A stretch of DNA of 64,000 nucleotides from Polytrichum commune (Eukaryota > Streptophyta > Polytrichopsida > Polytrichales > Polytrichaceae), in the NCBI GenBank assembly GCA_950295325.1, contig OX485804.1:69416033-69480032 (forward strand), given 5' to 3'. Below are positions 5,615 through 46,953 of the stretch, in pieces. Made by a program: the position numbers and the translations under genes. How positions within the stretch are numbered: position 1 is the stretch's first letter; each line of letters begins with the position of its first letter. The notes under the pieces were generated by a model that had not been told where the DNA came from, made no database searches, and saw only the letters and a list, made by a program, of their open reading frames with translations.

Positions 5615-5700
5615 GGGGAAAGTTACAGCATGAGCGTAGAGCGGTGAGCGTCATGTTTTCGTGAATTTCTCCGCTCGCTTTTAAATTTTTTATTGAAACA
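5615..5700 (+). repeat. Left terminal inverted repeat of the 41-kb element
   Basis: Strong match to the right end over CATGAGCGTAGAGCG, weaker outside it (GGG at the tip) and inside it (TGAATTTC and a T-rich run). It includes GAGCGGTGAGCG, the same kind of GAGCG-rich short repeat that forms the ends of the inner 10-kb element. Confidence 0.82.
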
Positions 5701-7371
5701 TAAGGATCCTATTACCACTGAATTTGGTCCGGAGAAAATTGTAAATGTATATTTTTAGGGAAAAGAGTACCCCAAATCCGTGGAAGGGGTCCTACTGCAA
5801 ATTTTTGTTATTATATATATAGTGAAATTAGGGCTGACGTCATCATTTATATGAAAGGGTGATTTAAATGAGGACCGTTCAAGGTTGAAATGAAATTGTG
5901 TTTTAATTAATTCACAAATTTGTTTTAGTGTTTAAGGCTAAGGGCGTAATTAGGGCTGGCATCCTCGAAACAATAATTTAAATGGGGAAGTTTATACAAT
6001 CCAACAAGTGAATATTCTTGTGCTTGTTAATCGGTCATGTAGGTAGGTCCCCTCAAATATGTTCATTAGGTATTGCGTCTAGGATGGGGATCATACTATA
6101 GAGTATATAGTCCGATCTTTTTTATTTGTTTGGGTTTCCATTTTTGTAGCTACATCTAACCACATACCACTCAAAGATAGGTGTTCATTAAGATAAGCAA
6201 CTGAATTAAGCACGTCTACTTTAAGTCCAAAACCTCTTGACACATGGCTCTTTTGAAGTGGCTAGAAAAGGGTGATTATCACGTACGAGCATAACTTTCA
6301 TCCATACATTATCTAGACTATACAAACTAATTATGAATAGGTGCCACCTCGAAAAAATGTATTCAAATAACACACTCCAATGTAACTTATTTAAATTGTT
6401 GACTCTCCCATGCAATATACTATAAAGTCTCTTGTATTAACCTCCTTATTGACATTGCTTCTTATATCTCAAAACCCTAAAGAATGGATGTTTTGAGTTT
6501 TAATTCTCACTCCTTATTTTCATAATTCCCTCCCATACATCACAAATTTTGACATTGATGCTAGAACTATATGCTAAATTATATGATGCACTTGACCATA
6601 TTTACACTATAAATATGGACTTCAACTTAGTACTTAAATGGAGAATTTACCTCGTTAAGGAGATTAAAATATTCTATGACATGTTGCTTCTTTAAGAAAC
6701 GACTAAAGATGGAGTATAAACAAGAATTTTCATTATTATTCTCGCCAAGGCCCCCTCTGAACTTAGGCAACTTTTAAGGGTTGGCAATCATTCAGCTTTT
6801 TCAGTTAGTACAATGCTGCAATTAAAATTGGCAGCATGAGCCCATAAACATAACCAAACGCCCCACGGGTGTTTGGAGGCAATAAAACTTATTTTTTTGT
6901 GTTAAACTGCTATTCATATTTTAAAAAATGCAAAATAACCATTGAAGGAAATGCATTGTCCTTCTAGTGAGATTATCCAATTGAAGAAATGAGTTGAAAC
7001 TAGGGTTCAACAACGGTAGCATTTATGGAAGAATACAATATATATGTATATATTTCTAAGCTTTAAAATAAACAAAATGCACTTCAACAATTTATATACA
7101 ATTGACATATAAACCGAAGACATGTCCTTACTAGGTTTTGTTAGATAGAGTCAATTCAATGTTCAAGTTTGAAGTGTGCACATGCATTTCAGTGCAAATG
7201 GCTTAACTCAAACTTTCAAACTTCAACTTCTTTGAACTTCTTTGACAAGTCTACAATAGCTATGACACAAAGAAACTTGTAGATGTTTTATTTTAAAAAG
7301 AAATGGCCATTTGAAATGGCTACATTATGCACGTGGCGAGAGAAAAGAAACAAACATATGGATAGTCATGA
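5701..7371. other. AT-rich subterminal DNA of the 41-kb element, no gene seen
   Basis: No open reading frame with recognisable similarity and no convincing tandem repeat. It holds the CCGTGGAA motif at about 5,774 shared with other ends of this family. It separates the left terminus from the 3' end of gene B. Confidence 0.5.
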
Positions 7372-8854
7372 TCAAGGTGAACCAACATCGAAACTCTGGT
7401 CACATTGATCAGCCTCGACATCCATGTATCTAAGCACTGTAGGGTTGAAAAGTTGACGTGGAGAATCTGAAAGGATTGGAGATGGGGCGCGTATGAAATC
7501 CTGTGCTATACGTTCGGCATATGAAGGTAAGGCGAACGAAGTAGGAGGACTCATGTAGACATCAGCGTGGCAGATCAAACGTCGTGCGAGACCTGCGTCA
7601 CTAAACAATAAAACAAAGTCAACATGACAAATTCTATGAATACATTAAATGTTTGAGAGACTTAAGACATGGAGTTAAGACGCACCGCAATACTTGTGAC
7701 CCTTCTTCTTCTTTGGCGCAATGTCTTCCTCAGAATCAGAGTCTGTGGTTGAATCCGCGCGCTCTTCTGGTTGCGGGATCGCATCCACGTAAGGCTTGAG
7801 AAGCGCCTCAAAGATTTCTGAATCCGGCTCCAACGCGATGAGGTGTCGGTTCGAACGTTGGCAAGCAATGATAGAAGCACCTGCAGTTTGGAAAACGGAA
7901 TTTAGAAAGTGGAATTCAGTTTCAGCTATTGTAAACGATGAAGGGAGAGATTGAAAACCTGTACTAGGGCTCCAGTCGCAGACGATATCATGCTCGTCTG
8001 TAAGACACTCGATGAAGCACTGAACAAAGGATGGGTCCTTCTCACCCGAGCCACGCCAAGGAAGTCCGCTAGGGCGTAGAAGTTGGGACTCGGTTGTCGT
8101 GAAGTTCGTCAAGTCGTCGCGCTCTTCGGGAAGGATCTCCATTTGTACGAACTGTGGTCGCAATCGGCGAGTGCGGAACTTGGAACTAAGGCGTGCAAAG
8201 ACCTTAATGTTGAAGTTATGGGTCTGTAAGACAACCTCAAGGATAAGTAGATATTGAAACTGATTGTCGGATTGAGAAATTCAAATTATGAACATAAAAG
8301 ATAATACCTCTTTCTGGTGTGGAAGGGAGGAGGCCATGGGAATGGGATTATAGCCCCACCAATCCCGGACAATCGTAAAATCATAGATTTTGATTTTACT
8401 ATCTAACTTCTTCTCGATTCGACGGTCCTTGGGATGGAAGAGTAGAACAACTCCGTCATCGGTCAAGTGACAATCTGCGAAGGCGAAGAGTTGGTCAAAG
8501 TAGTCTATCTCTCGCTTGTTCCACGATGGTACGGACATGGGGGAGATGACAGGCACGACCAAGTCTTCGGGAGCGTCAACAATCACGAGATCAATTCCAG
8601 GATGCCTAGGCCGCATTTGCATCGATTCACAAGGATAAGTACGGCCGACCCCGATCTGTATGAATAAGAGTAGTGGAAAGCATGAGTTACCGATAATAAA
8701 AAACCTCACTAGTCCAAGAAAATTGTCAAATTGATAGTGTTAGTGAGATATGGGATTGTGTGACCTTGATAATGTGGTCTACGATACGGACAAGTTGCCG
8801 ATCCATGAATTTCTGGTGTTCAGACTGGTTAAGCAAGGCACAGAAGTTTCCATG
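7372..8854 (-). pseudogene. Gene B, 3' exons: methyltransferase-like domain of the ParB-like/MTase protein
   Basis: Exons: 8,854-8,765 (HGNFCALLNQSEHQKF, donor AAG/GTCACA), about 8,686-8,309 (acceptor TTCATACAG; GIDLVIVDAPEDLVV then HLTDDGVVLLFHP), about 8,163-7,960 and 7,880-7,690 joined across a short intron (AGTACAG/GTTTTC to ACTGCAG/GTGCTT) giving DWSPSTGASIIACQ and NRHLIALEPDSEIF, and a last exon about 7,605-7,372 (FALPSYAERIA). The order motif IV-like (DAPE) then SAM-binding motif I (STGAS, RHLIALE) matches beta-class N4/N6 DNA methyltransferases. The catalytic PP of motif IV is not canonical, so activity is uncertain. It is homologous exon by exon to gene A (9,062-10,329). Its 5' part lies at 19,064-21,941, cut off by the inner transposon. 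Confidence 0.72.
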
Positions 8855-8864
8855 CTCAAGAAAC
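8855..8864. repeat. Target-site duplication of the 10-kb inner element, left copy
   Basis: CTCAAGAAAC, identical to 19,054-19,063. Joining the flanks through one copy keeps gene B open: ...TTLPMFLE then HGNFCALLNQSEH.... Confidence 0.92.
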
Positions 8865-8960
8865 GGGGAGTGCTATCTTATGAGCGGTGAGCAATGAGCG
8901 GTGAGCGATGAGCGGTAACTTATGAGCAGTGAGGAAGATGAAAATTTTGGTAATAGGGCC
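8865..8960 (+). repeat. Left terminal inverted repeat of the inner element
   Basis: Tip GGGGAGTGCTATCTTATGAG, then four to five units of the form (A)TGAGCGG/TGAGCAA, ending near GAGCAGTGAGG. The right end carries the same in reverse complement, with GCAGTAAC and CATATGAGC variants. Confidence 0.85.
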
Positions 8961-9061
8961 ACCAATATCCTATAACCGTGGAATTGTGGCCTTAAAAATG
9001 ATGATTTTAGGGTTTAGTAATAAGAGGGTTGAGAAGGATAAACAACATGAAGTCCAAAAAT

Positions 9062-12000
9062 TTATTCATCAGTAGTAGCACTAGACATGAAACTATCTTT
9101 TGCCTCGTCATCTATATATATTCGAGCACCTTTGCATTGCGAATTGATTTTGGAACTATAGCAAGATTCTTCATTTGGATCCGAATCTTCGAGATTCAAC
9201 ATTGCAATTGCAACATTCTCGGCATATGATGGGAGACGCGGGCTACGGCTTGGACTTCGTAGGAATTGTCTATGTGCCCAAAACGGGAGACATGTCCTCT
9301 TTCCAATCGTATTCCTGAAATCAAATCGATGAAACATGTAAATAATGTGAAGAAATAAAAATGAACCAATGAATTGAATGAAACGAATGAATTGAATAAA
9401 AATTTATTGTATCAAAACTTACTCACACTCAAATTCAAGCATCTCCTCATCCGAGAGGTCATCATCTTCTTTTGTGAGATCTTGTATATTCTCCTTAGAT
9501 GACCCCTCTTTCAAAACCTTTTCCAAAAGCGGTTTCAATAAGTGCTCAAACATGTCATTATCACCCTCAAATGCAAGAAGATGTCTGCCACATGCGCGTG
9601 TTGCTAGGATAGAAGCTCCAGTGGAACACGTCAAATCAACAACGCGTCCATTCGATGGTGTAAACAATTCAATAAGATCTTGAAAAAAACGCGGCGATTT
9701 TTTATATGGCCCCCTCCAAGGTCTTCCCGATTTTTGAAGAAGCATGTTTTTTTCATCCACAAAATTGAAAAGCAAGTTTTTGCTTTTCAATCCAGTGCCA
9801 AAAAAAGTGGAGTTTGGTTGTCTCGTGGATTTTGTGGTAGTAAAATCCCTTACCAAGACATGAGCCATAAATGCCGGAGTCTACAAAAAAATATAAATTG
9901 TGTTAAAACTATATACAATACAAATAACACTAAAATAATTAAATAGAAACAATTGTGATGCGTTATACTTACGGTGTACGTTGGAGACTCCGGATCCTTG
10001 AACACCATGTACGAATTGAGGCAAATAAAAGTCCTAAGAACTTTCATGTTGCCGTTGTGTAAGGTTAAATTCAAAACCTTATTGGTTTGCATATCGATAG
10101 CAGAAAATACTATGAGGACGCCATCATCAGACAAGATGGACTTGCACAAGGACATTGTTGCAACCATCCAGTTCTTGTCATATTTATTCCAAAGAGGAAT
10201 TTCAGCAGGTTTATTGGAGAGGTTGAAGTCAAGACCGTCGGGAAATTGGAGAAAAACCAAGTCAACGGCAAAGGGAGTCGGACTTCCCATGACATGAAAT
10301 TCGCGATTGTCATTGAACTGAAATACCACAACATATCACAATATAAGACACAAAATAAAACCCAAATGAAAGTAAGAACATTAGAAAAAATACCAAAACA
10401 ATAACACTTACGTTTTCAATAAATTCCCGCCATTGGATCCACTTAGGAGGGCCTACATCCACCCCTTTAGACTTGTTCTTGACAGCAGTAGATCGAGCAA
10501 ACGAGAGCATGAGAAAGTTCTTCAATATGAATAACTCTTTTCTCAAAATATCCGTTGGCGCACGATGAATAGCGTCATAGGTGCTGGAGTAATGAAATTC
10601 CAATACATCGCACCCAGACTTTGAACTTTCGCATCCAAGTGGATTCTTATCCAAATCATTGGAAAGAACAAGCAATTCTTCATGTTGTGAAATTTCCAAT
10701 TGACCTTGTATTTTGGTTTCAGGAATATGTTTCCTCTTACGACGTTTTGTCTCTTTTGGTTCTGGCTCTCTAAGTTTAAGCTGCACAATTTGTGCTTGCA
10801 AAATTGCAGTATCACGAGGATCCACATTTTTAGCATCATTTATTTGACGGATTGTCTTCTCACTTGACGGACATGCATCCTTAGGACAATCAAGATACCA
10901 ACCACAATCCTCATAGTGTGGGAGCGACCAATCCAAACAAATCTCAGTAGTGAACATGCATGAATCTCCTGCACCAGTGTCACGCCAATTTGGGAAAAAA
11001 CGAGGTTCCCCTACAACGCATTTATGTGGAATCAAAACATATCGAAAATACCTACACACAAAAATATTGTAAGTCAAATATTCCATGACAATTTGACAAA
11101 TGGAATCAAAAAAATCAAAAAAATCAAAAAAATAATAAGATTAGGTTGTACCTGTATAATACACGTTTCATAGCAAGATCAATATTAGGTTGCTCATCCC
11201 AACCATTGTGTTTTTTAACTTTTCCGCTTTGGAATTCACGATAGAATATTGAATTGAAAGCCGCAAATTTCCAGGTTTGGATATACTCGGAGAGAGTAGG
11301 CACATCTGCAGGCAACTGAAGAGGAGATGAAAGAATACTTTGAAGCTCTTCGATAGCTTTTTTTTCCAACTGTGCCCAATATGTAGACTTTGATAACCAA
11401 TCATCAAGTGCAGAATCAGAGAGGGGCGATTTCGGGAAATGCAATGCATCTTTGTCAAATCTATTGCCATTCCAAAGCTTGAGCCATCCAACTTTGACTT
11501 CTGAATCCACATTACTGACAGCAACACGACGAAGTTTCTCTTGTAGCATTTCAGGCACCGAAAATGAACCCCAATGGTGCTTAACTTCTTCAAGGAAAGT
11601 AGAGGTAAGGTTGATGTCGGCAATCGCTAGTTGTTTCGTAAAACTAGAAGATAACATTGCACGTTTTTTGTTGACAGCTGCGGACATTGCTTTTGAAACT
11701 CCGTCTGATGTCCGTTCAAGAGGATAAGTTTCATTGTACTGGTTGAGAGCAATATCGCTAGCCTCAGCAAGTTCTTGCTGAAAAATCAAACAAAAGTCAA
11801 TATTTATAAGTACATATAGATATAATGTAAAATGAAGATGAATAAACCTAAGGCACATATTAGCAATGGTAGAAGAACTTACACTGTACATGTAATCCAA
11901 AAAAAGTGGTCGTGTCAAAGAATACCAAGTTTCAACGGACTTCTCCTCACATCGTTTATAATTCTTTGGATCCAGTTGCTTTCTGAAGGAAGTCAAAGGC

Positions 12001-14948
12001 ATGGTGCCTATACTTTGCATCCGATATAAAGTATGCACCAAATTGGTGGATACGTGAGAATTTTCGGTTGACATGAAAAAAAATTTAAATTGATTAGATT
12101 CATGATGATATAATTTGGAAAACAAAATATAAACTAGAAATAAGTATAAAAAAATAGGTAAGAACATTACTTGTTGATGTCATGCATAGCAGTCAACAAA
12201 CTTGGAATGTCGTCAAGCTCGGACGCCAAAATGATAGAATCCACGAAGACATGACGTTCATAATCTTCGGTATATACGCGGTCAATATAATTTTTCCAAG
12301 CAAAAAATCTGTGATTTCCATCCCATATAAAAAACATCTTGTTCTTGTATGACATCAATGACAAATCTGTATCCAATTGAGATTCAAACAGGGCATTGGT
12401 TTGAACCCAATTTGGGCTCCAAGATGCGCGAACCTCATCATCCACGAATTGAAAGTTTCCCTTAGAATCGGTGGCTGATATATAAAATACACGGTCACCA
12501 TCACGATAACCATTGAAAAAATCAGCCTCCAATTTAGTAATGTCACCCTTCAAAGCAGGACGTACAATCGGTATAGGAACCATGCGACATAAGGGTACAC
12601 GCAAGCGAGCATTAGGTCCAGCACGGATTGAGGAAATTGTGGAAGTGGAATTGACCTTTCGTTTGTTCGTAAGCTCCCACACTTTCTCTTGATAAGTTTT
12701 ATTGTCACCATCATTATCTTCATCCGAATCAAAATCATCTAGGGATTCATTTTTTATTTTTTTTCTTATTATGAAGATTTGACGATATATCCTGATGATG
12801 ATGAACCTGTTGAGATGGACGATCTTGAGTTGAATGCATTGTGCAATCATCATCAGTCGAAATAAGAGTCGTTCTCTCCAAATCCATTGATTCGTCCTAA
12901 AATAAATGAAATAAGTTTCATAAATATTCCAAAACCAGTAGCAACACATTAGCAATAATATTACAAAACCAACAGCAATAACAGCATAATACCACGAACA
13001 CAGGGAAAATGACAAAAATTATTCTACACATTGCCATTTGCACCTCTAAATATTGTACGATTACGGTGGCCGCCCACCCCAAAACTACAAGGGCAGACCC
13101 TGTGCGTTAACGCACAGGGTCTGTGAGTCCAACTACAGGTCTACAAAAGTTGGGCGCGAGGTTTGGGTCGAACGACCCAAATTGTCCATCCAGTTTCGAT
13201 CGAGCGACCCAAACCGCCTACAGCCAGTTTGGGTCGAACGACCCAAACTTTCTACGCGTGGTTTGGGTCGGCCGACCCAAACAAGGCGGACAGTTTGGGT
13301 CGAACGACCCAAACTGTCCGCAATTTACGCCTGATTATGCGCAATTACCCTGTCATCACGAAAGTACAAACAAACCTTGTACTGCACCTGTAGATGAGAG
13401 AGCTTGCAGCGACGAGCTAAGGTCCGATAGATGAGAGAAAAAAGACTGAATGCTTTGGGGGTGTGGCAATTTATACTACTCGTCCCTGTAGCCATATTTA
13501 GCGTGGCTGTTCGTGGCCCCGCATAGCCGCTAGAAAGTTGTCAGCGTAGACCCTGTGCGTTAACGCACAGGGTCTGCGCTGGCAACTTTCTAGCCACTAT
13601 GCGTTAGCGCATAAGGTCTGTGCGTTAGCGCATAGACCCTGTGCATTAACGCACAGGGCCGAGGCATGAATTTTATAAAAAACTTTTTTTTTTGAATTTT
13701 TTTTGTCTGGAATTGGTAGATTTGCCAAAACTTGTAAAATCTGGAAAAAATGCTAATGGGGTCCAAAAGAAAAAGAAAAATATGCTATATTATCTAAATC
13801 TCCGTAGCTAAAAATTCTTCTGATATTTTTTTTTGGTTTGAAATCATTTTCTTTTCTCATTCTTCTATCTATTTCCTTGTTTTAGGCCACCTCGTAGATT
13901 TTGGGTTTCGGGGCAAAAAAAAATTATTCTATTTTGTGTCATTTTCTAGCTCCTATAACGTATTGCATGAATACTTGAGTAGACATATTTCTCATTTCTT
14001 GCATTCTAACCCCGTTTTGAATAGTTTTTTTGGTCCTACGCTCTGAATATCGATTTAAATTCATACAATAGATATTTGTTTTACTTTTAAGCTCTCCTAG
14101 TCGTTTTACCTCCCAATTTTTGGCGTTCCTAAGTTGCTCTTACAAACCCTGTGCGTTAACGCACAGGCTTTTACCTCCCAACTTTGGCCTTCCTAAGTTG
14201 CTATTACATACCCTGTGCGATAACGCACAGGGTTTTAGCTCCGAATTTTGGCCTTCCTAAGTTGCGCTTACAAACCCTGTGCGTTAACGCACAGGGTTTC
14301 TCCTCCCAACTTCTCGCCTCCTAAGTTGCTCTTATAAACCCTCTGCGTTAACGTATAGGGTTTTACCTCCCAACTTCTCGACTCCTAAGTTGCTCTTATA
14401 AACCCTCTGCGTTAACGTATAGGGTTTTACCTCCCAATTTCTCGACTCCTAAGTTGCTCTTATAAACCCTGTGCGTTCTCCTCCTGACTTCTAGCCTTCC
14501 TAAATTTTTGTTATATACCATGTGCATTAACGTATAGGGTTTCTCCTCTCCAATTTATAACCTCTATAAATTGCTACTACATGACATGTGAGTGAACGTA
14601 CAAGGTTCTCCGTCCTAACTTACAACTTATGCACTATCAAATTATGTGAACGTTGAACTGACTTACCTTTTTGTTTGTCATCTTCTTTGAACCCGTCTTC
14701 AATTCGGACTCTGATATACGATCGTCTACATCTTCTTTGCTTTTTGCACCTTCATCATCCTCCATCGCATCAAAATTCAGTGTCTTCACAGTTTCTTCTA
14801 CCGTACTCAACAAGTTTATTTTCCCACTCTTATTTGCATTCTTCTTTCCCACACTCAGTTTGAACCTCTTTTTCTCGGAAGTGAAATACAAAGCTTTCCT
14901 ACGTCTTCTCTTCGGCCTCACGGGTGTTCTCTCTACATCGTCCACCAT
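9062..14948 (-). CDS. Gene A: ParB/Srx-like plus DNA-methyltransferase-like protein of the inner element
   Basis: Multi-exon minus-strand gene. Exon 1 is 14,948-14,667 (basic, VRPKRRRRK; 94 codons, donor AAG/GTAAGT). A 1.77-kb intron holding palindromic repeats follows, then exon 2 from 12,896 (acceptor TTTTAG) with a ParB-like domain: VPLCRMVPIPIVRP, GYRDGDRVFYIS and GNHRFFAWKNYI. Middle exons (12,160-10,430) include STENSHV, VGWLKLWNGN and CGWYLDCPKDAC. The methyltransferase-like part follows: FAVDLVFLQFPDG with LSDDGVLIVFS (10,329-9,970), then GRPWRGPYKKSPRFFQDLI, VVDLTCSTGASILA, GRHLLAFEGD (9,868-9,420), and a tail exon with LPSYAENVA (ends 9,062). SAM motif I is good; motif IV (FPDG) is degenerate. 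An A-run near 12,755 needs one base less to keep frame, so this copy may be damaged. Exon borders are approximate. Confidence 0.72.
13161..13317. repeat. Array of GTTTGGGTCG inverted repeats
   Basis: Three units have arms GTTTGGGTCG and CGACCCAAAC (one ending AAAT) around AA (13,161; 13,227; 13,292). One has a GGCC centre and is a perfect 22-bp palindrome (13,261). A degenerate half unit lies at about 13,195. Arms extend to 13 bp in the last unit (ACAG...CTGT). Confidence 0.85.
13521..13602. repeat. 82-bp near-perfect palindrome
   Basis: Two 39-bp arms flank a TTAA centre, with four mismatches. The arms include GCTAGAAAGTTG on the outside and CAGACCC-TGTGCG next to the centre, so the family core TGCGTTAACGCA is the middle of the palindrome. 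Confidence 0.88.
14105..14610. repeat. 64-bp tandem repeat with palindromic core TGCGTTAACGCA
   Basis: CCCTGTGCG or its variants recur at 14,147, 14,211, 14,275, 14,339, 14,403 and 14,467 (exact 64-bp spacing), with two degenerate units at about 14,518 and 14,584. Each unit holds the palindrome plus a spacer like TACCTCCCAACTTnnnGCC and CCTAAGTTGCTCTTA. Units 4-6 show TGCGTTAACGTA variants. It lies inside intron 1 of gene A. Confidence 0.9.
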
Positions 14949-15470
14949 CGTTGGTGTCTATGATATGTTTTCTATCAGGTACTATCATTTATTCTTCCAA
15001 TGTATCTATCTCACAAAATCCGGCGTATATTATGATCACATGTTGTAATTGGCGTTCAATGAGCGAGATATTTCGACGCGTTTGTCATTATGTGTTTATT
15101 TTTGTTATATCCGCCAAAATTTTCTGACACCTACTTTGTTCTATTCATAATGATCAATAATTTATTTTTCCAACCAATTTTAATTCTTTCTACATCTACG
15201 TCAGTCCACACATATATATTTTAAATTTCTACCAATATTTTTAGTATTTGACGCCATTTTGTGTATATCTTGCTCGTAAATATTCTCTGACTATTATTGT
15301 GTTATGTCGACTTCTGTATTATTAAATGCTATGTATCACACGCTTTCATCTCCATCCATTATTGTATCACACGTTTTCATTTCCATTCATTTCCTCACAC
15401 AACTCTATACAAAAGTAACATTCACCCCATATTTTTGTGATGTATTGTTCATATGTTCTTTTGATTTTCT
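14949..15470. promoter_or_regulatory. Intergenic region between divergent genes of the inner element
   Basis: About 520 bp of AT-rich DNA between the start of gene A (minus, 14,948) and the transposase start (plus, 15,471). No further gene is seen. Its position makes it the likely shared promoter of the two element genes; I could not pick a single confident TATA box. Confidence 0.45.
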
Positions 15471-18148: not shown

Positions 18149-18265
18149 TATTGCAAATGTTCTATTAAACAACATATATTTCAATGTCAATAAATGACAT
18201 GTTTTGGTTTGGATTATTATAATAAAAATTAGCAATGGACTGAAAGTATTTCAAATGATTCAGTA
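18083..18265 (+). repeat. 3' end of transposase gene, first copy of a duplication
   Basis: The last codons (from GCACCTACATATAC), the stop region GAATGTGAGTAG and the following 3' flank with ATTATAATAAAAAT reappear at 18,657-18,835 with about one change in seven to ten bases. Confidence 0.85.
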
Positions 18266-18359
18266 ACTTCATTTTTATTTAGACTACATCCAACCGTGAG
18301 TGGTTTCATTTATTCATACGGATAAATAATAACAAGTTTCTAAAAATAAAAAATAATTA

Positions 18360-19053: not shown

Positions 19054-19063
19054 CTCAAGAAAC
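19054..19063. repeat. Target-site duplication of the inner element, right copy
   Basis: CTCAAGAAAC, identical to 8,855-8,864; part of a gene B exon. Confidence 0.92.
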
Positions 19064-34100: not shown

Positions 34101-37100
34101 AAAATTGTCACCTCTGGACCCCTGCGCCAGCGCAGGGGCTCTCCATTTTCAAGAGCAAACTCTGGAACCCACAAAAAAAACCCTTTGGAGCTCATGAACC
34201 TTACTGACCTAACCTCATGTCCCTACTGAAATTGCAAATCAAATATCAAGCAAGAAAAAAGCTTTTTGAAAAATGTCACCTCTGGACCCCTGCGCCAGCG
34301 CAGGGGTCTCTCCATTTTCAAGAGCAAACTCTGGAACCCAGAAAAAAAACCCTTTGGAGCTCATGAACCTAACTGACCTAACCTCATGTCCCTACTGAAA
34401 TTGCAAATCAAATATCAAGCAAGAAAAAAGCTTTTTTGGAAAATGTCACCTCTGGACCCCTGCGCCAGCGCAGGGGTCTCTCCATTGTCAAGGGCATACT
34501 CTGGAACCGAGAAAAAAAACCCTTTGGAGCTCCTGAACTTAACTGACCTAACCTCATGTCCCTACTGAAATTGCAAATCAAATATCAAGCAAGAAAAAAG
34601 CTTTTTGAAAAATGTCACCTCTGGACCCCTGCGCCAGCGCAGGGGTCTCTCCATTTTCAAGAGCAAACTCTGGAACCCAGAAAAAAAACCCTTTGGAGCT
34701 CATGAACCTTACTGACCTAACCTCATGTCCCTACTGAAATTGCAAATCAAATATCAAGCAAGAAAAAAGCTTTTTGAAAAATGTCACCTCTGGACCCCTG
34801 CGCCAGCGCAGGGGTCTCTCCATTTTCAAGAGCAAACTCTGGAACCCAGAAAAAAAACCCTTTGGAGCTCATGAACCTTACTGACCTAACCTCATGTCCC
34901 TACTGAAATTGCAAATCAAATATCAAGCAAGAAAAAAGCTTTTTGAAAAATGTCACCTCTGGACCCCTGCGCCAGCGCAGGGGTCTCTCCATTTTCAAGG
35001 GCAAACTCTGGAACCCAGAAAAAAAACCCTTTGGAGCTCATGAACCTAACTGACCTAACCTCATGTCCCTACTGAAATTGCAAATCAAATATCAAGCAAG
35101 AAAAAAGCTTTTTGAAAAATGTCACCTCTGGACCCCTGCGCCAGCGCAGGGGTCTCTCCATTTTCAAGGGCAAACTCTGGAACCCAGAAAAAAAACCCTT
35201 TGGAGCTCATGAACCTAACTGACCTAACCTCATGTCCCTACTGAAATTGCAAATCAAATATCAAGCAAGAAAAAAGCTTTTTGAAAAATGTCACCTCTGG
35301 ACCCCTGCGCCAGCGCAGGGGTCTCTCCATTTTCAAGGGCAAACTCTGGAACCCAGAAAAAAAACCCTTTGGAGCTCATCAACCTAACTGACCTAACCTC
35401 ATGTCCCTACTGAAATTGCAAATCAAATATCAAGCAAGAAAAAAGCTTTTTGAAAAATGTCACCTCTGGACCCCTGCGCCAGCGCAGGGGTCTCTCCATT
35501 TTCAAGGGCAAACTCTGGAACCCAGAAAAAAAACCCTTTGGAGCTCATGAACCTAACTGACCTAACCTCATGTCCCTACTGAAATTGCAAATCAAATATC
35601 AAGCAAGAAAAAATCTTTTTTGGAAAATGTCACCTCTGGACCCCTGCGCCAGCGCAGGGGTCTCTCCATTGTCAAGGGCATACTCTGGAACCGAGAAAAA
35701 AAACCCTTTGGAGCTCATGAACTTAACTGACCTAACCTCATGTCCCTACTGAAATTGCAAATCAAATATCAAGCAAGAAAAAAGCTTTTTGAAAAATGTC
35801 ACCTCTGGACCCCTGCGCCAGCGCAGGGGTCTCTCCATTTTCAAGGGCAAACTCTGGAACCCAGAAAAAAAACCCTTTGGAGCTCATGAACCGAACTGAC
35901 CTAACCTCATGTCCCTACTGAAATTGCAAATTAAATATCAAGCAAGAAAAAAGCTTTTTGAAAAATGTGACCTCTGGACCCCTGCGCCAGCGCAGGGGTC
36001 TCTCCAATTTCAAGGGCAAACTCTGGAACCCAGAAAAAAAACCCTTTGGAGCTCATGAACCTAACTGACCTAACCTCATGTCCCTACTGAAATTGCAAAT
36101 CAAATATCAAGCAAGAAAAAAGCTTTTTGAAAATTGTCACCTCTGGACCCCTGCGCCAGCGCAGGGGCTCTCCATTTTCAAGAGCAAACTCTGGAACCCA
36201 CAAAAAAAACCCTTTGGAGCTCATGAACCTTACTGACCTAACCTCATGTCCCTACTGAAATTGCAAATCAAATATCAAGCAAGAAAAAAGCTTTTTGAAA
36301 AATGTCACCTCTGGAACCCTGCGCCAGCGCAGGGGTCTCTCCATTTTCAAGGGCAAACTCTGGAACCCAGAAAAAAAAACCCTTTGGAGCTCATGAACCT
36401 AACTGACCTAACCTCATGTCCCTACTGAAATTGCAAATCAAATATCAAGCAAGAAAAAAGCTTTTTGAAAAATGTCACCTCTGGACCCCTGCGCCAGCGC
36501 AGGGGTCTCTCCATTTTCAAGAGCAAACTCTGGAACCCAGAAAAAAAACCCTTTGGAGCTCATGAACCTAACTGACCTAACCTCATGTCCCTACTGAAAT
36601 TGCAAATCAAATATCAAGCAAGAAAAAAACTTTTTGAAAAATGTCACCTCTGGACCCCTGCGCCAGCGCAGGGGTCTCTCCATTTTCAAGAGCAAACTCT
36701 GGAACCCAGAAAAAAAACCCTTTGGAGCTCATGAACCTAACTGACCTAACCTCATGTCCCTACTGAAATTGCAAATCAAATATCAAGCAAGAAAAAAGCT
36801 TTTTGAAAAATGTCACCTCTGGACCCCTGCGCCAGCGCAGGGGTCTCTCCATTTTCAAGAGCAAACTCTGGAACCCAGGAAAAAAACCCTTTGGAGCTCA
36901 TGAACCTTACTGACCTAACCTCATGTCCCTACTGAAATTGCAAATCAAATATCAAGCAAGAAAAAAGCTTTTTGAAAAATGTCACCTCTGGACCCCTGCG
37001 CCAGCGCAGGGGTCTCTCCATTTTCAAGAGCAAACTCTGGAACCCAGAAAAAAAACCCTTTGGAGCTCATGAACCTAACTGACCTAACCTCATGTCCCTA

Positions 37101-37840
37101 CTGAAATTGCAAATCAAATATCAAGCAAGAAAAAAGCTTTTTGAAAAATGTCACCTCTGGACCCCTGCGCCAGCGCAGGGGTCTGTCCATTTTCAAGAGC
37201 AAACTCTGGAACCCAGAAAAAAAACCCTTTGGAGCTCATGAACCTAACTGACCTAACCTCATGTCCCTACTGAAATTGCAAATCAAATATCAAGCAAGAA
37301 AAAAGCTTTTTGAAAAATGTCACCTCTGGACCCCTGCGCCAGCGCAGGGGTCTCTCCATTTTCAAGAGCAAACTCTGGAACCCAGAAAAAAAAACCCTTT
37401 GGAGCTCATGAACCTAACTGACCTAACCTCATGTCCCTACTGAAATTGCAAATCAAATATCAAGCAAGAAAAAAGCTTTTTGAAAAATGTCACCTCTGGA
37501 CCCCTGCGCCAGCGCAGGGGTCTCTCCATTTTCAAGAGCAAACTCTGGAACCCAGAAAAAAAACCCTTTGGAGCTCATGAACCTAACTGACCTAACCTCA
37601 TGTCCCTACTGAAATTGCAAATCAAATATGAAAAGAAAAAAAAACGTTTTGAAAAATATCACCTCTGGACCCCTGCGCCAGCGCAGGGGTCTCTCTATCT
37701 TCAAGAGCAAACTCTGGAACCCAAAAAAAAAACCCATTGCAGCTCATGAACCCACCTGACCTAACATCAGGACCCTACTGAAATTGCAAATAAAAAATGA
37801 AGCAAAAAAAAAATGTTTTCAAAAATCTAGCCTCTGGTCT
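22160..37840 (+). repeat. 169-bp satellite array, about 93 monomers, each with a palindrome
   Basis: Period is exactly 169 bp in the core (e.g. CTCTCC at 33,125 and 33,294). Each monomer holds an inverted repeat with arms GACCCCTGCGC and GCGCAGGGGTC around CA, an A-run after GGAACCCAG, and AAGCTTTTTGAAAAATGT. Monomers at 22,160-24,900 and after 37,640 are more diverged; the centre is highly uniform. A 12-monomer higher-order repeat of about 2,028 bp is visible: blocks at 28,697/30,724 and 29,703/31,730 (offset 2,027), and 32,357/34,386 and 33,541/35,570 (offset 2,029). It lies between exons of gene B, probably in an intron. ORFs inside it are chance products of periodicity. Confidence 0.97.
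26681..27520 (+). repeat. Two-monomer higher-order unit within the satellite
   Basis: The variant ACCCTTGCGCC recurs at 26,681, 27,019 and 27,357, exactly 338 bp (two monomers) apart, alternating with ACCCCTGCGCC monomers and co-varying with GAACCGAAC/GAACCTAAC. It marks a local dimer expansion. Confidence 0.85.
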
Positions 37841-37975
37841 CTCCATTTTTGAAAAATCTAACCTCGGCCTACCTCCTCCGACGTCCGCTCGCGTCCCTCC
37901 TCCGACTTCTCCTCGCCTTACCTCCACTTCCCTCGGCCTCCCTCGTCCCGAACTCCCAAACAGAGTTGGGACACT

Positions 37976-38426
37976 GCCGCCTGCCAGAGGGGCGGGGGAG
38001 GGTTCGGGAGACTTTGGAACTCAACCAGCTAAAATCCGGCCCTTCCCAACATCCACCGGTTTCTTCAGAATTTGACCGGTTGCAAACTTGTTGACATTAA
38101 TTTGGACCGGCCAATATTCTATAATATGTTTTTTCAAGTGCCGGTTAATTTATTCTTGATTGTAATGACAACCGGCCAAGAACTTGGGCATGTGTTGCTC
38201 CTACTTAACATATGCCCAAGTTTTTGGCCGGTTGTCATTACAATGAAGAATAAATTAACCGGCACTCGAAAAAAAATTATAGGATATTGGCTAGTCCTAA
38301 TTAATGGCAACAAGTTTGCAACCGGACAAATTCTGAAAAAACCGGTATAAGTTGTGAAGGGCCGGATTTTAGCTGGTTGAGTTCCAAAGTCTCCCGAACC
38401 CTGCCCCGCCCCTCCGGGCAGGCAGC
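37976..38426. mobile_element. 451-bp fold-back element
   Basis: Long inverted arms: the outer part GCCGCCTGCC...GAGGGGCGGGG...GGGTTCGGGAGACTTTGGAAC pairs with its reverse complement ending at GGCAGGCAGC. Further inside, CCGGTTAATTTATTC, TGTAATGACAACCGGCC and CTTGGGCAT also have mirrored partners. The centre is near 38,195. I see no clear target duplication, so transposition is inferred from structure. It lies at the right edge of the satellite, beside gene B exon 3. Confidence 0.75.
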
Positions 38427-38445
38427 AAGAGAACTAGATGCCTAC

Positions 38446-39434
38446 CCCTTCTAATGCTACCAGAACTAGATTGCAAGTCACTATAAGATGGAATGGGTTC
38501 CACCTCACAATCCTCTCCCTCACAATCACCATATGTGATTTTACTGGATGTGTACTTTTTATCATCCATATTATGGTTGTATTCCATCTGTTAACATTTA
38601 TAGAGTCAAATTTGCAAATAATGGAGTAACATCGTTTCATCGTCAACTGCCTAAGAAAGACATCTATAATCAGGTGACCAACAATTGATATAAACAATCG
38701 TAATATATCCTTATGACATCTACCCAACATGTGTTCCTAATCCATCGTCAAATTATCATAAACATCGAATTTCCAGGGTTTGGGATAAGTACCAGGAATC
38801 CTTCATCTAATTCTTCTTCCTCTCCTAGTTTCTTGCAGTCCATCACATCGCGTTCTTCGACTTGATCTTCGTTGGGTGCGCCCTCAATTGCAGCACTTCC
38901 GTGCTCGTCTTGCTGCCCAAAAATTTCACCAACCAGTGTCTCACTTTCTTCGTACTATACACATCAACGCAAGGTAGAATATGACTTAGGTTTAATACTC
39001 ATCTTTCAAGGCTTTAGGGTCTTGGAACTTACAACTTTATCGATCCCTTCTTCGTCACTGTCATGTTCGAATCCCAAAGAATCACTCCTCGATGATGAGG
39101 GCCTTCTACATTCTTGCTCTTCAACTTCATTGTCCTTTTCCCCTCCATCGTCTTCTTCTTCACCATCAACATTTTCAACAACAACATCCAAGTTCAACGG
39201 CTGCATCTCGATAGTCTTTCTAAACATTCCTGGCTCGTCCTCATCGTTCTTATCTACTTCATTTACTATTCGATCGTCTTCGCAAGAACCCGGGGCATCC
39301 CTCTTCCGCAACGCGTTCCATCGCAAAGCCTTGGCTCCACTGAATTTTATACCACCTCTCTTCTTCTTCCTCCCCCGCCCTCCCTCGTTCACTTTGTCTG
39401 TTTTACTACTCGTACCCTCCATAGTTGGCTCCAT
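38446..39434 (-). pseudogene. Gene B, putative 5' exons (acidic/basic N-terminal region)
   Basis: Exon 1 39,434-39,033 (134 codons, basic GRGRKKKRGGIKF then strongly acidic; donor GTT/GTAAGT), exon 2 38,954-38,793 (54 codons, phase 0; YEESETLVGEIFGQQDEHG, acidic; donor CTG/GTACTT), exon 3 from 38,587 (acceptor TTAACAG; MEYNHNMDDKKYTSSKITYG) to about 38,446. Position, orientation, basic-then-acidic composition and phase-0 first donor mirror exon 1 of gene A, so I assign these to gene B, which implies a roughly 16.5-kb intron containing the satellite. The phase of the exon 3 donor does not obviously match the next known exon at 21,941, so a missing exon or a separate gene remains possible. Confidence 0.5.
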
Positions 39435-40678: not shown

Positions 40679-41923
40679 ATGTCTTCCGCTGCTGTCCAAG
40701 CTCCACTCGTCGATGTCATCGAACTTGTTTATCCTGGATCTCTTATCCCTACATGCATACCTCCTGGCCCTGATGGAACTGCTGATCTCACTCCCCAGTG
40801 GCTATCCATTCGTTATGGTTTCGATGCTGATAGCTTGTGGTTAGAGACAGATGTTGTCGATCCGGATACTCGAAATGTCCTTTATTCCTTATACGTCCAG
40901 CCCGTAACGTTAGACAATAATGCTCGCGTTTGGAAACTCAAGCCCGGAAGGTATCGTGTCTTTGGCTTGTCGGAGTCCATGAACGCGACTACAGTCCTAC
41001 TCACTCCTCGCAGTTCCTCCACACTGTGCACTGAAGCCCCCTTACTGTCTCGTGTCAAGATCGAACCAGGTCTCCGCGTTAGCATCGATTTGTTTGATTC
41101 TTCTGATGAAGAGGGGAGGCCTTCCCATCCATCAATCCGGTCTAGTGCTAAACGTCCATCTCCCTCATCTTCTCAAGATTCACGTAGGACTACTCCTTCC
41201 CTTATACCTTCGCAAACTACTAAACTCATAAACATTCTTCCCTCCCTTCGTTCCCTGGGTAGTATGCCGAAGCAAGTCAGTACTTAAAAAACTGAATTAT
41301 GATTCCATCCGTATTGAGATTGTAGATTTCCTGCCACCGTCGTTCAATGGGGATGTAATCTTCATTCTTCCTCCCACACTTCCATCTGCCCTCCATAAGA
41401 ATGCTAAATCTATGGAAGGTATGGACAAACGTTACGATGGCCATATATGGACAAAGACTATGACTACTAACATCAGTAACACGCTGGGGCTGTCATTCCG
41501 GTCGTCTAACTGTGTAGGTCATCTTCAATGCCACAATCCCACATGTGGGTTTCTGCAGCGGCCTGAACGCGCATATGGAGTGAACGAGGTCGAGTTCGAA
41601 GGTTCTTCCAAAGATGTTTTCCCTGTTGCAGATGCTCCACCTCCAACTTCAACATTAGTCTGTAAGATCTGTAAAGAACCTCCTGTTTGTGTAGCTTCTT
41701 GTGATGCAAAAATCTTTTACGTTTTTGGAGATGATACGCAAGAGCGTGCTTGCGTCCATGTAGGCAACCATAAACATCATGTCAAGGTAGGAGACTATAG
41801 GGGCACGCGGAAGATAATCGACGATTTTATCGAACAACATGTTGAGCGCAACCCGCAGGCTACCATTTCCAAAATAGTCTTGGAAACGTCCAAGGATGTT
41901 TTAGGTAACGTCTTGCTCCGCGA
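40679..41923 (+). pseudogene. Outer-element transposase, N-terminal part (GCM-like zinc domain)
   Basis: I chose the ATG at 40,679 (CTCAATGTCTTCC) because the downstream sequence aligns with the inner transposase start. The frame gives a region with LKPGRYRVFGLSES (cf. FRVIGLSES in the inner copy), an acidic SSDEEGRP stretch and a Ser-rich linker. A frameshift at about 41,260-41,275 moves to the frame RSKSVLKKLNYDSI, then FNGDVIFILPP, GMDKRYDGH, GLSFRSSNCVGHLQCHNPTC, LVCKIC and CVHVGNHKHHV, the WRKY-GCM1-like zinc domain. The frame is then cut by the solo LTR at 41,924 after ...GNVLLR and resumes at 43,999. The zinc domain probably recognises element DNA. Confidence 0.75.
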
Positions 41924-43993
41924 TGTTAGTAACAACATTCTAAGATAGATTGAAGGCACAAAGAAGCAACAAACGACACCAAAACATTATCCCCGAGAAA
42001 AGAAGTGCAACACCGAAGAAAAACGATGAAGAAGCTTTCGGCCATGGAGCTCGGCCACGGCCTTAGGGCCCCTTTCCCACGGCTTTGCGTACTCGACGCG
42101 CGGTTATAGGTCTTCTTACCCACGGCAATGGGTGCCCAACGGGTTTTTGAGGAAGAACTTAGAAATTAAGAAGAAGGGCTACTACATTAGTATTAAGGAA
42201 TTAGTATTAGGCATTATGAAACATATTAGGGCATATAGAAATAGGATTTTGAGATTAAAGGACCATTTAAAGAGGCAATATGGGAGGAATGAAAGATTTT
42301 GAGGATCAATGACTATGAGGCATAATGGCGGAGAATATAGGAATGTAGTATTTCGATGGGCATGATTATGGAACTTGTGAGAATGTTGGAATATTAAGAA
42401 TTATTTTGAAGGTGCATTATGAGCATATAGGACAAAGATAGACTCTACTAATATGTTTTACAATCATCGGAATCAATCAACATGGAGATTTGAATTAATC
42501 CTCAAAAGGGAATTGTGATGTAACCACAATGAGGATATAGTAGAATCTTGAGAATACAAACATTAGGAAGGAAGAACGGTTGTAACCGTTTATGGTAGAT
42601 AGAATCTACATATTTTGAAGATAGATAGTTATTTAGAAAAGTGGAGATCACAACCACTCTTAATGTAGATTTTGGATTAAAAAGAGAAGACTATATAAGG
42701 GAAGCAAATTAGGAAACTATTACCTTATTTTCTACACAACGAAGTTATCTTAAATTTGAGTGTCAAGAATCACTTGAAGCTTTTGTAACTCTCTTCTCGA
42801 GGAACCTTTGCAATACACTTATCTTTTCCCACAAATGTATGTGTGACATTTCTATCTCTCTCTCAAATTGTCTTACAAGTTTGTCAAGCGGTACTTGGAA
42901 CTTGAGTAATTGAGCAACCGAGAGTAGAGTAGATTGAGTAGACTCTTTTGAGAAAGAACTCAAAAGATAGTGCGAGGGTGAGAACAAAGCGCTCAAGACA
43001 AATTGGAGAATCAATGGGACTTTGAGAGAGATTGAATTGAGAAAGCGATTGTTTAACTTGAGTGAAGGAAACAAGATTATCTCTCAAAGCGGAACTTATC
43101 ATTGATCTCCTCAAAAGGGAATTATAATTATTCATGTGATTAATTGATTGAAGAAATATATACATGTTATGATTTGAGCAAAAGAGGAGGAGCTTATTAT
43201 TATAAACTACATAATCGACTTATACATATTATACTACATATTGATTGATTGAACTTATGATTGACAAGAATGATGAAGACATTAATTCACATCAAAGTTT
43301 GAATACATATGAATGAAGTAATATTGATATAAGATAATCTACTTACTACAATTGTTATAGAAGCTTCTTACTTTAAGATTATTTGTGAGTTGTTGGATGT
43401 CATTATAATTTGAAGGATTATCTATTCAAGAGAAGATCTCTCTCTCTCTTGAGCAAAACTCAAGAGAGATAGGTTTACTTCTCGTCATCAAGAAACACTT
43501 TGAAGTTAAACGTGACATTGCAAAACAATCAATGATGTGTTCATGAAATTATAACTACTATATGTATACATGACAAGTTACAATATTATAAGTAGTAACA
43601 CTTGAGCTTAAAAAGGAAGACTCAAGAATATTAGATCTTCCTCATCGTTATAAGATTATTATCAATTGTATAATTGATGTGTATGAACTACAAAACTTAA
43701 TGATTCATAGAACTTATTGAAACTATATGTTATTGTTACACCTCTTGAAGCTTTCTTAAATCTAAAGGTTCTTATTGTCAATGATGCCTTACATTGAGAA
43801 CAAGAACTAAGATAATGAGATTGTGTTCACTCCAATAATATATTCATATCATAAGGAGAAGAGAGGAGTTATTAATCCGGGAACCGAGCATATTAATGAG
43901 ACACGGTAGTTCTCAAGCGAATATAAATTTACGTGATGTGCATCGTGAGTCCTCTTAGCTAAATTGCAAAGGAGCGACCCACGGCGTCCATCA
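41924..43993 (+). mobile_element. Solo LTR (copy 2), inserted in the outer transposase, TSD CGCGA
   Basis: TGTTAGTAACAACATT... to ...CATCA, 2,070 bp, flanked by a perfect CGCGA duplication (41,919-41,923 and 43,994-43,998). Removing it with one TSD copy joins ...GNVLLR to EEDDPPTLLSLEQ in frame. A TATA box (CTATATAAGG, 42,691-42,700) lies in the LTR sense strand. Same family as 68-2,204 but opposite orientation. No internal retroelement genes remain. Confidence 0.93.
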
Positions 43994-43998
43994 CGCGA

Positions 43999-46506
43999 AG
44001 AAGACGACCCTCCCACCTTACTTTCTCTCGAACAGCTAGAGCCTATCTTCCAATGCTGCAAGGAGCTCAATTCCCCTAACTTAAAAAACCGTGTCTACAG
44101 TTTCAAGTATTTGCGCAGATATGGCGTTCTTGATGGCATCACTAAGCTCAGAGGGCTTAGCAATTGGGCCTACGTGCAACGAAACATGTTTCCAGGCCAA
44201 GGTGACGACTCCGACAAGGTCTTCATATTCAAGATGTCCGAGGTGGGACCTGGCAGCGGTGTTGACCTTGTCCGCCGAATGCAACCTAGCGGCGATTTAG
44301 AGCTCTCCTGGATGATGTTCGACCACGTCAAACGAGTTGCCAATTGGACCACCATGGCCTGCCACGTGTACGACTCCTCTTACCAACGTGTACTCACCAT
44401 TGGTTGCTGTGATTTCCAGTCTGAGGACAAAGATGCTCAACTCGTTTTCTGGAAGAACCTTAACCATGTCATGGGTAGGCATGGAATACACAAGCCGCAG
44501 TTCAAAGGTTTCATGGTTGATAGTGCGCAAGCCAATTGGAACGCTGTGCGCATCATCTACGGATCCGGAGACCCAAAGATACCCATGGAAGGCTGCGAGC
44601 GAACGTGTTATTTCCACTGGGCGCAATCCCTAGAAAAACACACCAAACAATACATCGTGCACGAATTGCAAGATCAACACAAGAAATTGTGTATGCAGTA
44701 CAAAGATGCACGGTCTGTGGCAGAGGCTGAAACACGTTACTTGGAAATCAAAGCCTGGTGGACATCTTCGGGTGCCACCTCTGACGCTGGCCTCCACCAT
44801 TTGAACCACTGGCTTGCGTTTTGGCATTTCCGATACAGGCAGTGGGGTGGATTCATGGAACTGGTAAATATACACTCTTTCATTCAAATTATTTAATTCT
44901 TTAAGTTTGCATTCTTTTCTCTGCGTCTAATGTAGTATCTAAACAATATTAAATCTTTTGCTTTTAAATGGCATGGCCCACCACGACTACTCCTTGCTCA
45001 CTTGAGTTTCCGAACATTTTCTAAACAGTTGCCTTCGTACAGGAGAAGAAATATTCTCCGGATGAACTAGCTGAAATGCCCTCTTGCAATCTTGCTGAGA
45101 CCGTTCACAACAAATGGTTGCAAGCGTCCGGCAATAGGGGTGGCGATCTCTACGTGGCAGCCGTCGACGATTACGTTAGAGCATTCTTGCAAGTGGTGGG
45201 GTACTATCAATACCTCAAAGGTGGAGCGGGAGGCTCTGGACCCTCGAGAGAAGAACTTCGACTTCGCACAGCCCAACGCCGAGCTCACCGAACTGGGGAT
45301 CCGACTACCCTGAACGCAACCGTCTTGAACATGCCCGGAGCCGAAGATTTCTGTACTCGAAACGCACACCTCGAAGGAGCTGAGGTTTTTGGGTCGAGGA
45401 AACGGAAGCCGGATCTTCCCCTTGGCACCGAAGAAGAAACTCATAGGCCAGACACTGTTAATTTTTCACGTCCTCGAGTGGGTCGGAGGGTGACACGTGC
45501 TCGTGCTCAAAATTTGAGTACCATCCATGAGGAAGTTCACGTGGAAGTGGAACGCCCAGCACAGCCCCCTGCCTCAACTGGCATAGATATTGGACGGGTG
45601 ACGGCCGTGGAGGAGACTCGTGTGAATGAGAAGCTATGGCACATTGCCCGAATTAATAAGGTTTCTGCGAAGGCTTGTTGGGCGCAGATGGCTGTCACTC
45701 GAAAAAAGTGTACAGCCCGTATCGTCCAAAACGGGAAGAGCACACCAGCTTCCACATACACTGGCCTTTGGACCCACCCTCAAAAAGGCAACCAGAAGGT
45801 GGTAGAGCAGTTTTTTTTCTGTGCTGACGATATTGAGAGGTGTGTGAAGGGGTATCGTCGACGATGGATAGAGCCATTTTCGGATTACGAGGAACGACCT
45901 CCCATCCCGTCGGTTTGGCCTGTGAAGATAGGGACCAATCTCACACGTTCCGAGATTGAGGCGTTGGAGAATGCGGGATTTCAACTTCCCCAAAAGCAAA
46001 GCGTTCCTGTGAGCCGCATGTTCAACAGTTCAGCACCGCCACCGGATCTGTTACAGGTTCCAATGCCAGATAATGCGGACGTTTATCCTAAAACACGAAA
46101 GTCAAAGAACATGCGCCGCTCAATCACTTGTGCCAGTTCGAAGCACATGCAGAACATTGATTCCGCTAGAGCAATGAAGGCAAGTATTCTGAAGGTAGTA
46201 ATGATACCTCAACCCGGTTTTGGATGCGTTGTAACTTTGCAATCTAAACCAGCTCCCACGGAGTCAGTTTACCATCTCTCAATCAGTGCCTACCCAGACT
46301 GCAATTGCCCGGCGTTCAAAAAGACAATGGCTAAGCTGGGTAGACGCGGGTGTCCATTCCGACCTTGTAAGCATCTTTACTATATATACGTACAAGTCTG
46401 CAAACTAGAGGCCGACCATGACCTCTTCATGCATGCGCCTACCCTCAGTTTCTTGGAGGTGAAAACAATTCTTGAAAGGGGGATCTTAGCCCATGCTACA
46501 GTTTAG
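43999..46506 (+). pseudogene. Outer-element transposase, DDE core and SWIM finger
   Basis: Continues the frame from 41,923. The MULE-type DDE region is IGCCDFQSED (first acidic site), KGFMVDSAQANWNAV (second), and CERTCYFHWAQSLEKH (the C...H pair between second and third sites). An intron runs from about 44,863 (donor CTG/GTAAAT) to 45,042 (acceptor CGTACAG), phase 0. The C-terminal part has CNLAETVHNKWLQASGN, GTNLTRSEIEALENAGF, and a SWIM zinc finger CNCPAF ... CKHLYYIY (46,300-46,390), stop at 46,504-46,506. This half looks intact; the gene is disabled by the upstream frameshift and the LTR. The protein would bind element ends and cut and paste the element in the nucleus. Confidence 0.8.
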
Positions 46507-46603
46507 AGTAATCAGCTTTATTTATTAGTCTCATATATATGTTCTTTTTCATAAACGTGTATGACACACGTCACTCTATGTAATTTCACAATTTAGTGAA
46601 TAC

Positions 46604-46620
46604 GTATATATATATATATA
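46604..46620. repeat. (TA)n simple repeat
   Basis: GTATATATATATATATA downstream of the outer transposase stop. Flanking 46,507-46,860 is AT-rich with no gene seen. Confidence 0.9.
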
Positions 46621-46864
46621 ATTTTTTCGCTATGTTAAATTTATGAATCACTTATACTTGTCCTTCACTTGTGCTCTTCCGTGAACATGTGTCCTTGTAG
46701 TTCTCTTCAATGAAGTCAGCTATTTCCTCCAAAACTCAGTCACATATAAATTTTTTCCATATGTCAAGCCCATTTTGCACGGTTATGGGTACTAAATTCC
46801 ACGGCCATAAGGCTCAAATATTTGGATATTCTGAGGAATATACCATTAAAAATAATAATGTTTT

Positions 46865-46953
46865 TATTTTTGGAAATTTTATTACTAAAACTAAAAAGTC
46901 TCCGCTCGAAATTCAGAAAATCTACGCTCTACGCTCATGCCCTAGCAACGCCC
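46865..46953 (-). repeat. Right terminal inverted repeat of the 41-kb element
   Basis: On the minus strand GGGCGTTGCTAGGGCATGAG then CGTAGAGCGTAGATTTTC and TGAATTTC, pairing with the left end. CTCCGCTCG occurs on the plus strand at both ends (5,669 and 46,910), i.e. in the wrong orientation for a simple inverted repeat. Confidence 0.82.

Follow-up and report, generated by a model that had tools for sequence, protein, structure and literature searches.

A 41.3-kb Mutator-like unit in a CACTA gene of Polytrichum commune, dissected as a probable nest of two related elements

We analysed a 64,000-nucleotide stretch of Polytrichum commune DNA (assembly GCA_950295325.1, contig OX485804.1, positions 69,416,033 to 69,480,032 of the forward strand), called the window below, in which all coordinates are counted from the first base. 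Between 5615 and 46953 lies a unit of 41,339 bp with matching ends and a perfect 10-bp target site duplication (TSD), inserted in a CACTA TNP2 gene. The original prediction took this unit for a single 41-kb Mutator-like element (MULE). The unit comprises two related elements, one inside the other, a solo long terminal repeat (LTR) and a long satellite array. Three TSDs are present, reading frames continue across the three emptied sites, both elements follow the same gene plan and both carry palindromes in the spacer between their genes. Inner element, solo LTR, common gene plan and palindromes were not part of the original prediction. We regard it as highly probable that the unit is a nest and that its two elements are members of the same lineage, built to a shared plan. 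This judgement covers the nest and the plan; the proposed recognition of the palindromes by an encoded protein is graded separately.

Element ends and host gene

The features that define the outer element and its insertion site are the following.

4602-5604, minus strand: host CACTA TNP2 gene, 3' side of the insertion
5605-5614: left copy of the outer TSD, CACTTTGGAC
5615-5643, plus strand: left end of the outer element, starting GGGGAAAGTTACAGCATGAGCGTAGAGCG
46925-46953, minus strand: right end of the outer element, where the minus strand reads GGGCGTTGCTAGGGCATGAGCGTAGAGCG from 46953
46954-46963: right copy of the outer TSD
46964-47843, minus strand: host CACTA TNP2 gene, 5' side of the insertion

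Terminal inverted repeats (TIRs), a feature of MULEs, are present; that of the outer element is exact over 16 bp and has GGG at its tip. Within the window, CATGAGCGTAGAGCG occurs exactly only at 5629-5643 (plus strand) and 46925-46939 (minus strand), which bears out the predicted exact ends. With up to three mismatches it has four matches, where 0.68 are expected, and four were reached in none of 100 shuffles. The 10-bp TSD is likewise as predicted, exact at the two places flanking the unit and nowhere else in the window. Allowing one mismatch, the 10-mer was found seven times against 5.65 expected. Because the 10-mer itself thus occurs at chance frequency, the evidence for the TSD is its exact placement at both ends.

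When 5615-46963 is removed, the flanks fuse into a single minus-strand frame of 630 codons (293 before and 337 after the junction), which reads ...VQVCPKCSKSRWVEG... over the junction and restores the CPKC context. The host gene is therefore continuous without the unit, as had been proposed. The fused protein matches TNP2 (Pfam: PF02992) with an E-value of 1.5e-55 at residues 346-567, which places it among the CACTA transposases, and a DUF4218 domain lies further along in the left flank. The TNP2 match is entirely to one side of the junction, so host continuity rests on the frame and the CPKC context. There is no N in the window, and an assembly join is ruled out by this absence together with the three TSDs and the frames that continue across them, all read from the assembled sequence.

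Insertions within the unit

Several further sequences lie inside the outer element.

8855-8864 and 19054-19063: left and right copies of the inner TSD, CTCAAGAAAC, 10 bp, perfect
8865-19053, plus strand: inner element, related to the outer one, 10,189 bp long, inside the left gene of the outer element
22161-37841, plus strand: array of a 169-bp satellite in the spacer that separates the outer genes, 15,681 bp, 92.8 copies
37975-38427: foldback of 453 bp, 88% self-complementary, beside the right edge of the satellite
41919-41923 and 43994-43998: TSD of the solo LTR, CGCGA
41924-43993: solo LTR, TG...CA, 2.07 kb, inside the outer transposase

Removal of the inner element with one copy of its TSD leaves the frame of the outer left gene open across the site (216 codons before, 46 after). 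In the same way, the transposase frame continues across the empty site once the solo LTR is left out, reading NVLLREEDDPP. Aligning the window to itself by blast gave an inverted pair at 8872-8933 and 18985-19046, a 62-bp stretch of the inner TIR with 87% identity. No relative other than the inner element was seen. The outer and inner element each have two genes in identical order on either side of a spacer: one, ending in a DNA-methylase-like part, runs leftward, and the other, a transposase bearing Mutator-type motifs, runs rightward. Aligned protein pieces of the two elements are 28-61% identical. The motif ATGAGCG is found at bases 16-22 in all four ends of the two elements, a shared offset that was noticed post hoc. 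Alignments of whole ends are less striking, as the likeness of the outer right end to the two inner ends over 45 bases was matched or beaten by 33 and 35 of 2,000 window segments.

A second copy of the solo LTR lies in inverse orientation at 68-2204, with the TSD GCTCC at 63-67 and 2205-2209. Positions 42284-43993 and 68-1770 are 86% identical over 1.75 kb in the blast of the window against itself.

The 41,339 bp include 10,199 bp of inner element and duplication, 15,681 bp of satellite, a size in accord with the predicted internal 15.7-kb satellite, and 2,075 bp of LTR and duplication. Without these, 13,384 bp (about 13.4 kb) remain for the outer element, still including the 453-bp foldback, which may be a further insertion or a miniature inverted-repeat transposable element.

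All of this lies within one outer TSD and one pair of outer ends, which is what a single 41-kb element moved as one unit would leave behind. We nevertheless reject the single mobile unit of the original prediction, which we hold to be very improbable, on the ground that the nested parts bear their own TSDs; the inner element and the solo LTR sit within the outer genes and disrupt them. With transposase and left gene both interrupted, self-movement of the present unit is hardly possible, and because both outer genes are broken it would be immobile unless aided in trans. The claim of exceptional size dissolves in this way, and the 41-kb nest is no proof that a MULE of such size can move. The unit is real and well bounded and, as a giant element, ordinary once dissected. 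Nested insertions in coding MULEs are common, being present in 191 of 530 candidates from maize and in 195 of 476 from rice (PMC3903597), where LTR retrotransposons and other transposable elements are likewise found. Unlike in those nests, one of the nested elements here is a relative of its host element, and a satellite adds 15.7 kb. In the first report of Pack-MULEs, as told in PMC6431247, none exceeded 7 kb.

Transposase and superfamily

The rightward genes of both elements consist of the following parts.

15471-18145, plus strand: inner transposase remnant, with Cys/His-rich N-terminal part, E-region and SWIM-like C-terminus
40679-41923, plus strand: N-terminal part of the outer transposase, with one frame change near 41273-41280
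43999-44863, plus strand: outer transposase, two candidate catalytic D residues and CxxH
45025-46503, plus strand: outer transposase, E-region CNLAETVHN and SWIM-like CxC...CxH

The Cys/His-rich N-terminal parts of both transposases can be aligned with a score of 561; for the C-terminal pieces, identity is 61% (59 residues) and 43%. No D-containing catalytic part is left in the inner copy, which has a stop at 16779-16781, ahead of the E-region. The DDE and SWIM reading is by eye, as is the assignment of the catalytic residues, and the order so read in the outer copy, D...D...CxxH...NxxE...N plus SWIM, fits Mutator. KDZ and Zisupton transposases likewise possess SWIM.

Some results weigh against the assignment to Mutator. 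The read-through outer transposase (1194 residues) matched no Pfam family at E-values up to 10, and the AlphaFold model of the catalytic open reading frame (ORF) was unusable, with a mean predicted local distance difference test score (pLDDT) of 37.3. Because the transposase has no Pfam match, the term Mutator-like depends on how long the TSD is and on motifs recognised by eye. We keep this part of the original prediction on those two grounds, while support from a MULE transposase profile (PF10551) did not materialise, as the separate transposase ORFs gave no MULE domain in Pfam either. SWIM (Pfam: PF04434) matched the inner C-terminus below the cut-off (E-value 0.18), and a Cas3-type match to one ORF (E-value 0.061) is at chance level. 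No relatives of the transposase C-terminus were found among viral contigs.

The two elements could instead represent a distinct superfamily related to Mutator, which would fit a transposase without Pfam MULE match. We consider this improbable. The order of the motifs, which as read by eye fits Mutator, argues against it. So do the 10-bp TSDs of both the outer and the inner element, which lie in the range of 8-11 bp given for MULEs (PMC6446971).

Methylase-like gene

The leftward gene is found in both elements, and its outer copy is cut in two by the inner element.

7678-8854, minus strand: outer left gene, 3' part with DNA-methylase-like domain, introns placed by eye, severed from the 5' part by the inner element
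9419-12757, minus strand: inner left gene, with GNHR-bearing N-terminus (by eye) and DNA-methylase-like C-terminus
19064-21644, minus strand: outer left gene, 5' part with GNHR motif, about 38-39% identical to the inner gene over the compared stretch
20302-20491, minus strand: 7-bp minisatellite inside the outer left gene, giving peptide repeats of STLNSQL type

In the inner gene the last four exons are open over 690 codons with three GT-AG introns, and introns are about 70-100 nt long. Together with TNP2 and DUF4218 in the host gene, introns of this length point to a plant. For the first intron of the inner gene we found no canonical acceptor, and which join to use ahead of the last four exons was decided by eye; our placing of the 5' end and of the first two exon junctions is provisional. 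The C-terminal methylase-like parts of the outer and inner genes are 28% identical, and their middle parts show a weak likeness (best score 61; the highest among 200 shuffles was 53).

Several searches point to DNA methylases of the beta class (N6-adenine/N4-cytosine), which the domain matches weakly at the level of both profile and structure database. The inner gene matched PF01555 with an E-value of 0.01 and 16.3 bits, below the gathering score of 26.7. In PHROGs, a DNA methyltransferase family was matched by the inner (E-value 3.4e-6) and the outer copy (E-value 0.0012), and the reversed-sequence control gave no methylase. When a two-row profile of the methylase domain was compared with PDB, the top two matches were the DpnA adenine methyltransferase (E-values 0.011 and 0.012). 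By tblastn, all ten weak records (six phage, with two phages present twice, and four plasmid; E-values 0.06-1) fell on genes whose annotation is DNA methylase or methyltransferase. The left gene shares with beta-class methylases an order in which the region of the catalytic motif precedes that of the S-adenosylmethionine motif. Unlike those enzymes, neither the inner conceptual protein nor the outer domain has the catalytic DPPY-type motif, (D/N/S)PP(Y/F/W). From these sequence comparisons, the C-terminus of the left gene is likely, though not certain, to be of the DNA-methylase class.

Other results count against parts of this description. The inner methylase domain alone gave no methylase in PDB, with a Tc3 transposase as the best match (E-value 1.4), and families of non-DNA methyltransferases were also matched weakly by the methylase-like domain. 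The N-terminal GNHR region we called ParB-like (of the ParB/sulfiredoxin-like class) by eye, and the name ParB did not appear among the Pfam, NCBIfam, PDB-profile or phage tblastn matches. The AlphaFold model of the ParB-like pair was unusable (mean pLDDT 36.9). Furthermore, the similarity between the outer and inner left genes does not extend across the inner insertion site. The inner GNHR-containing piece matched two PHROG families of unknown function (E-values 0.017 and 0.058). Neither the methylase alignment nor the ParB-like alignment had relatives among viral contigs, and the methylase domain had none among prokaryote genome contigs. In the literature, of which few subscription papers were covered, no MULE with a DNA-methylase-like gene was among the matches listed.

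Spacer palindromes and satellite array

The spacer of the outer element is occupied by the 169-bp satellite, and that of the inner element also holds tandem repeats.

13094-14599: palindromes of the inner spacer, with tandem repeats of 34, 21 and 64 bp, most units of which carry a palindrome

The palindromes are GC-rich, GACCCCTGCGCCAGCGCAGGGGTC in the satellite and AGACCCTGTGCGTTAACGCACAGGGTCT and GTTTGGGTCGAACGACCCAAAC in the inner spacer. Across the whole window, taken part by part, we counted palindromes whose arms match perfectly over at least 10 bases and whose GC fraction is at least 0.3. There are 67, of which 57 lie in the satellite, eight in the inner spacer, one in the solo LTR and one in the right flank, and the other seven parts have none. 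Ten first-order resamplings of each part, satellite excepted, gave means of 0-0.2, with 0 in the inner spacer. Out of 93 matched monomers, 90 are full-length, and in every one of these at least 8 of the palindrome's 12 pairs are formed. Half-sites of satellite and inner spacer are within an edit distance of two, which 625 of 200,000 random GC-rich 10-mers equalled. The satellite palindrome had no match in viral contigs. As a separate observation, a 90-bp inverted repeat pair of 88% identity has one copy in the outer spacer (38543-38632) and one in the right flank (61418-61507).

A role of the palindrome is not favoured by its pattern of change within the array. Its conservation is equalled or bettered in 60 of 144 monomer windows, its own included, and among 1,080 cells from the 90 full monomers, 41 have an arm change on one side only and seven on both sides. 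We therefore reject a reading of these data as showing selection on the palindrome within the satellite, there being no excess conservation and few two-sided changes.

The absence of extra conservation in the arms is also what we would expect if the methylase-like gene were a chance capture in the style of Pack-MULEs, without a role, and the palindromes ordinary satellite features. MULEs are prone to the capture of gene fragments (PMC6431247), and the DPPY-type motif is missing in both copies. The gene nevertheless keeps its place and orientation in two elements whose aligned protein pieces have diverged at 39-72% of residues, and in the inner copy the last four exons are open. We regard chance capture as a possibility on the unlikely side.

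The array is not uniform. Counting from the left, 14 of the first 16 full monomers depart from the consensus by 8-16%, and most of the others by 0-4%. One stretch of 1 kb at 32.5 kb recurs with 100% identity 2,029 bp further on, another at 28.5 kb recurs with 99.8% identity after 2,027 bp, and the right edge is abrupt. We read this pattern as probable growth by unequal exchange with duplication of blocks of about 2 kb, the left edge being old. The size and homogeneity of the array resemble ordinary satellite DNA, and together with the abrupt right edge they would also fit a genomic satellite, for example a pericentromeric one, that invaded or was captured and does not derive from the element. 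Such an origin seems to us rather doubtful, as the array occupies the spacer, the spacer of the inner relative too has palindrome-bearing tandem repeats, and the divergent left monomers beside a homogeneous core are as in local growth.

Other sequences in the window

No Rfam family at gathering score and no tRNA was found in the window. A G-rich minisatellite at 57543-58484 switches at about 57940 to a C-rich, complement-like repeat, forming an inverted minisatellite pair. On the plus strand, an open frame at 59299-60687 has a partial match to the protein kinase domain (Pfam: PF00069; E-value 5.2e-07, 29.8 bits against a cut-off of 31.7). An 81-bp tandem repeat of 3.6 copies at 63331-63620 adjoins a GGGTTTAGGATTTAG repeat.

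Comparison with known elements

MuDR and other two-gene plant MULEs have a SWIM transposase, comparable to the SWIM-like one here, and likewise TSDs of 8-11 bp and a second gene in antisense, the orientation in which PMD often lies (PMC6446971). Other ORFs or motifs described for MULEs in that paper include PMD, SET, ovarian tumour gene, mudrB, mutB, vanB/vanC and unknown ones, and the word methyltransferase is absent from its main text.

The VANDAL elements of Arabidopsis, such as Hiun, belong to the Mutator superfamily and likewise pair a transposase with an accessory gene, which encodes the anti-silencing protein VANC (PMC5735166). VANC proteins bind motifs that are arrayed as tandem repeats in the non-coding regions of VANDAL elements (PMC5735166, PMC10398659). 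They also have peptide repeats (PMC5735166), of which the 7-bp minisatellite in our outer left gene is reminiscent. In contrast to VANDAL, the accessory protein here is DNA-methylase-like, which by description sets it apart from VANC, and the motif is a long palindrome. A DNA transposon as satellite source, as would be the case here, is known from the Tetris foldback transposon of Drosophila virilis (PMC4079207), which differs in the kind of transposon and in the host.

Proposed history and implications

We propose that the starting point was a Mutator-like DNA transposon, about 13.4 kb long apart from any satellite then present, which would have entered the CACTA TNP2 gene by cut-and-paste with a 10-bp duplication. 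Afterwards, in any order, the outer left gene would have received a related element of 10.2 kb, the outer transposase an LTR retrotransposon that was later reduced to a solo LTR, and the 169-bp repeat in the spacer would have expanded to 15.7 kb, in part through duplication of blocks of about 2 kb. We infer that most of the satellite growth is later than the outer insertion.

By analogy with VANC in VANDAL elements, the methylase-like protein may act as an accessory regulator that binds the spacer palindromes, and could counter silencing or control divergent promoters. That it is a catalytically weakened DNA-binding factor which recognises the palindromes and keeps the element expressed is a tentative suggestion drawn from this analogy. 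The spacer array would then be its putative binding platform, and such a service as a platform would explain why expansion of the array is tolerated. A step further, and less probable still, is a Mutator-related lineage with a fixed methylase-derived protein that targets its own spacer palindromes, in which the platform runs away into satellites of centromere-like monomer size.

The methylase-like gene and the palindrome arrays common to both elements are the part worth following. What remains after dissection of the nest is a candidate for a second Mutator-like lineage in which an accessory gene goes together with arrays of motifs, the protein in this case being methylase-derived. Binding of the palindromes by this protein, if it occurs, would mean a system of anti-silencing or regulation that does not depend on VANC, as well as a route from transposon spacer to satellite DNA. 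If the runaway of the platform is also true, a transposon and its own DNA-binding protein would together seed satellites.

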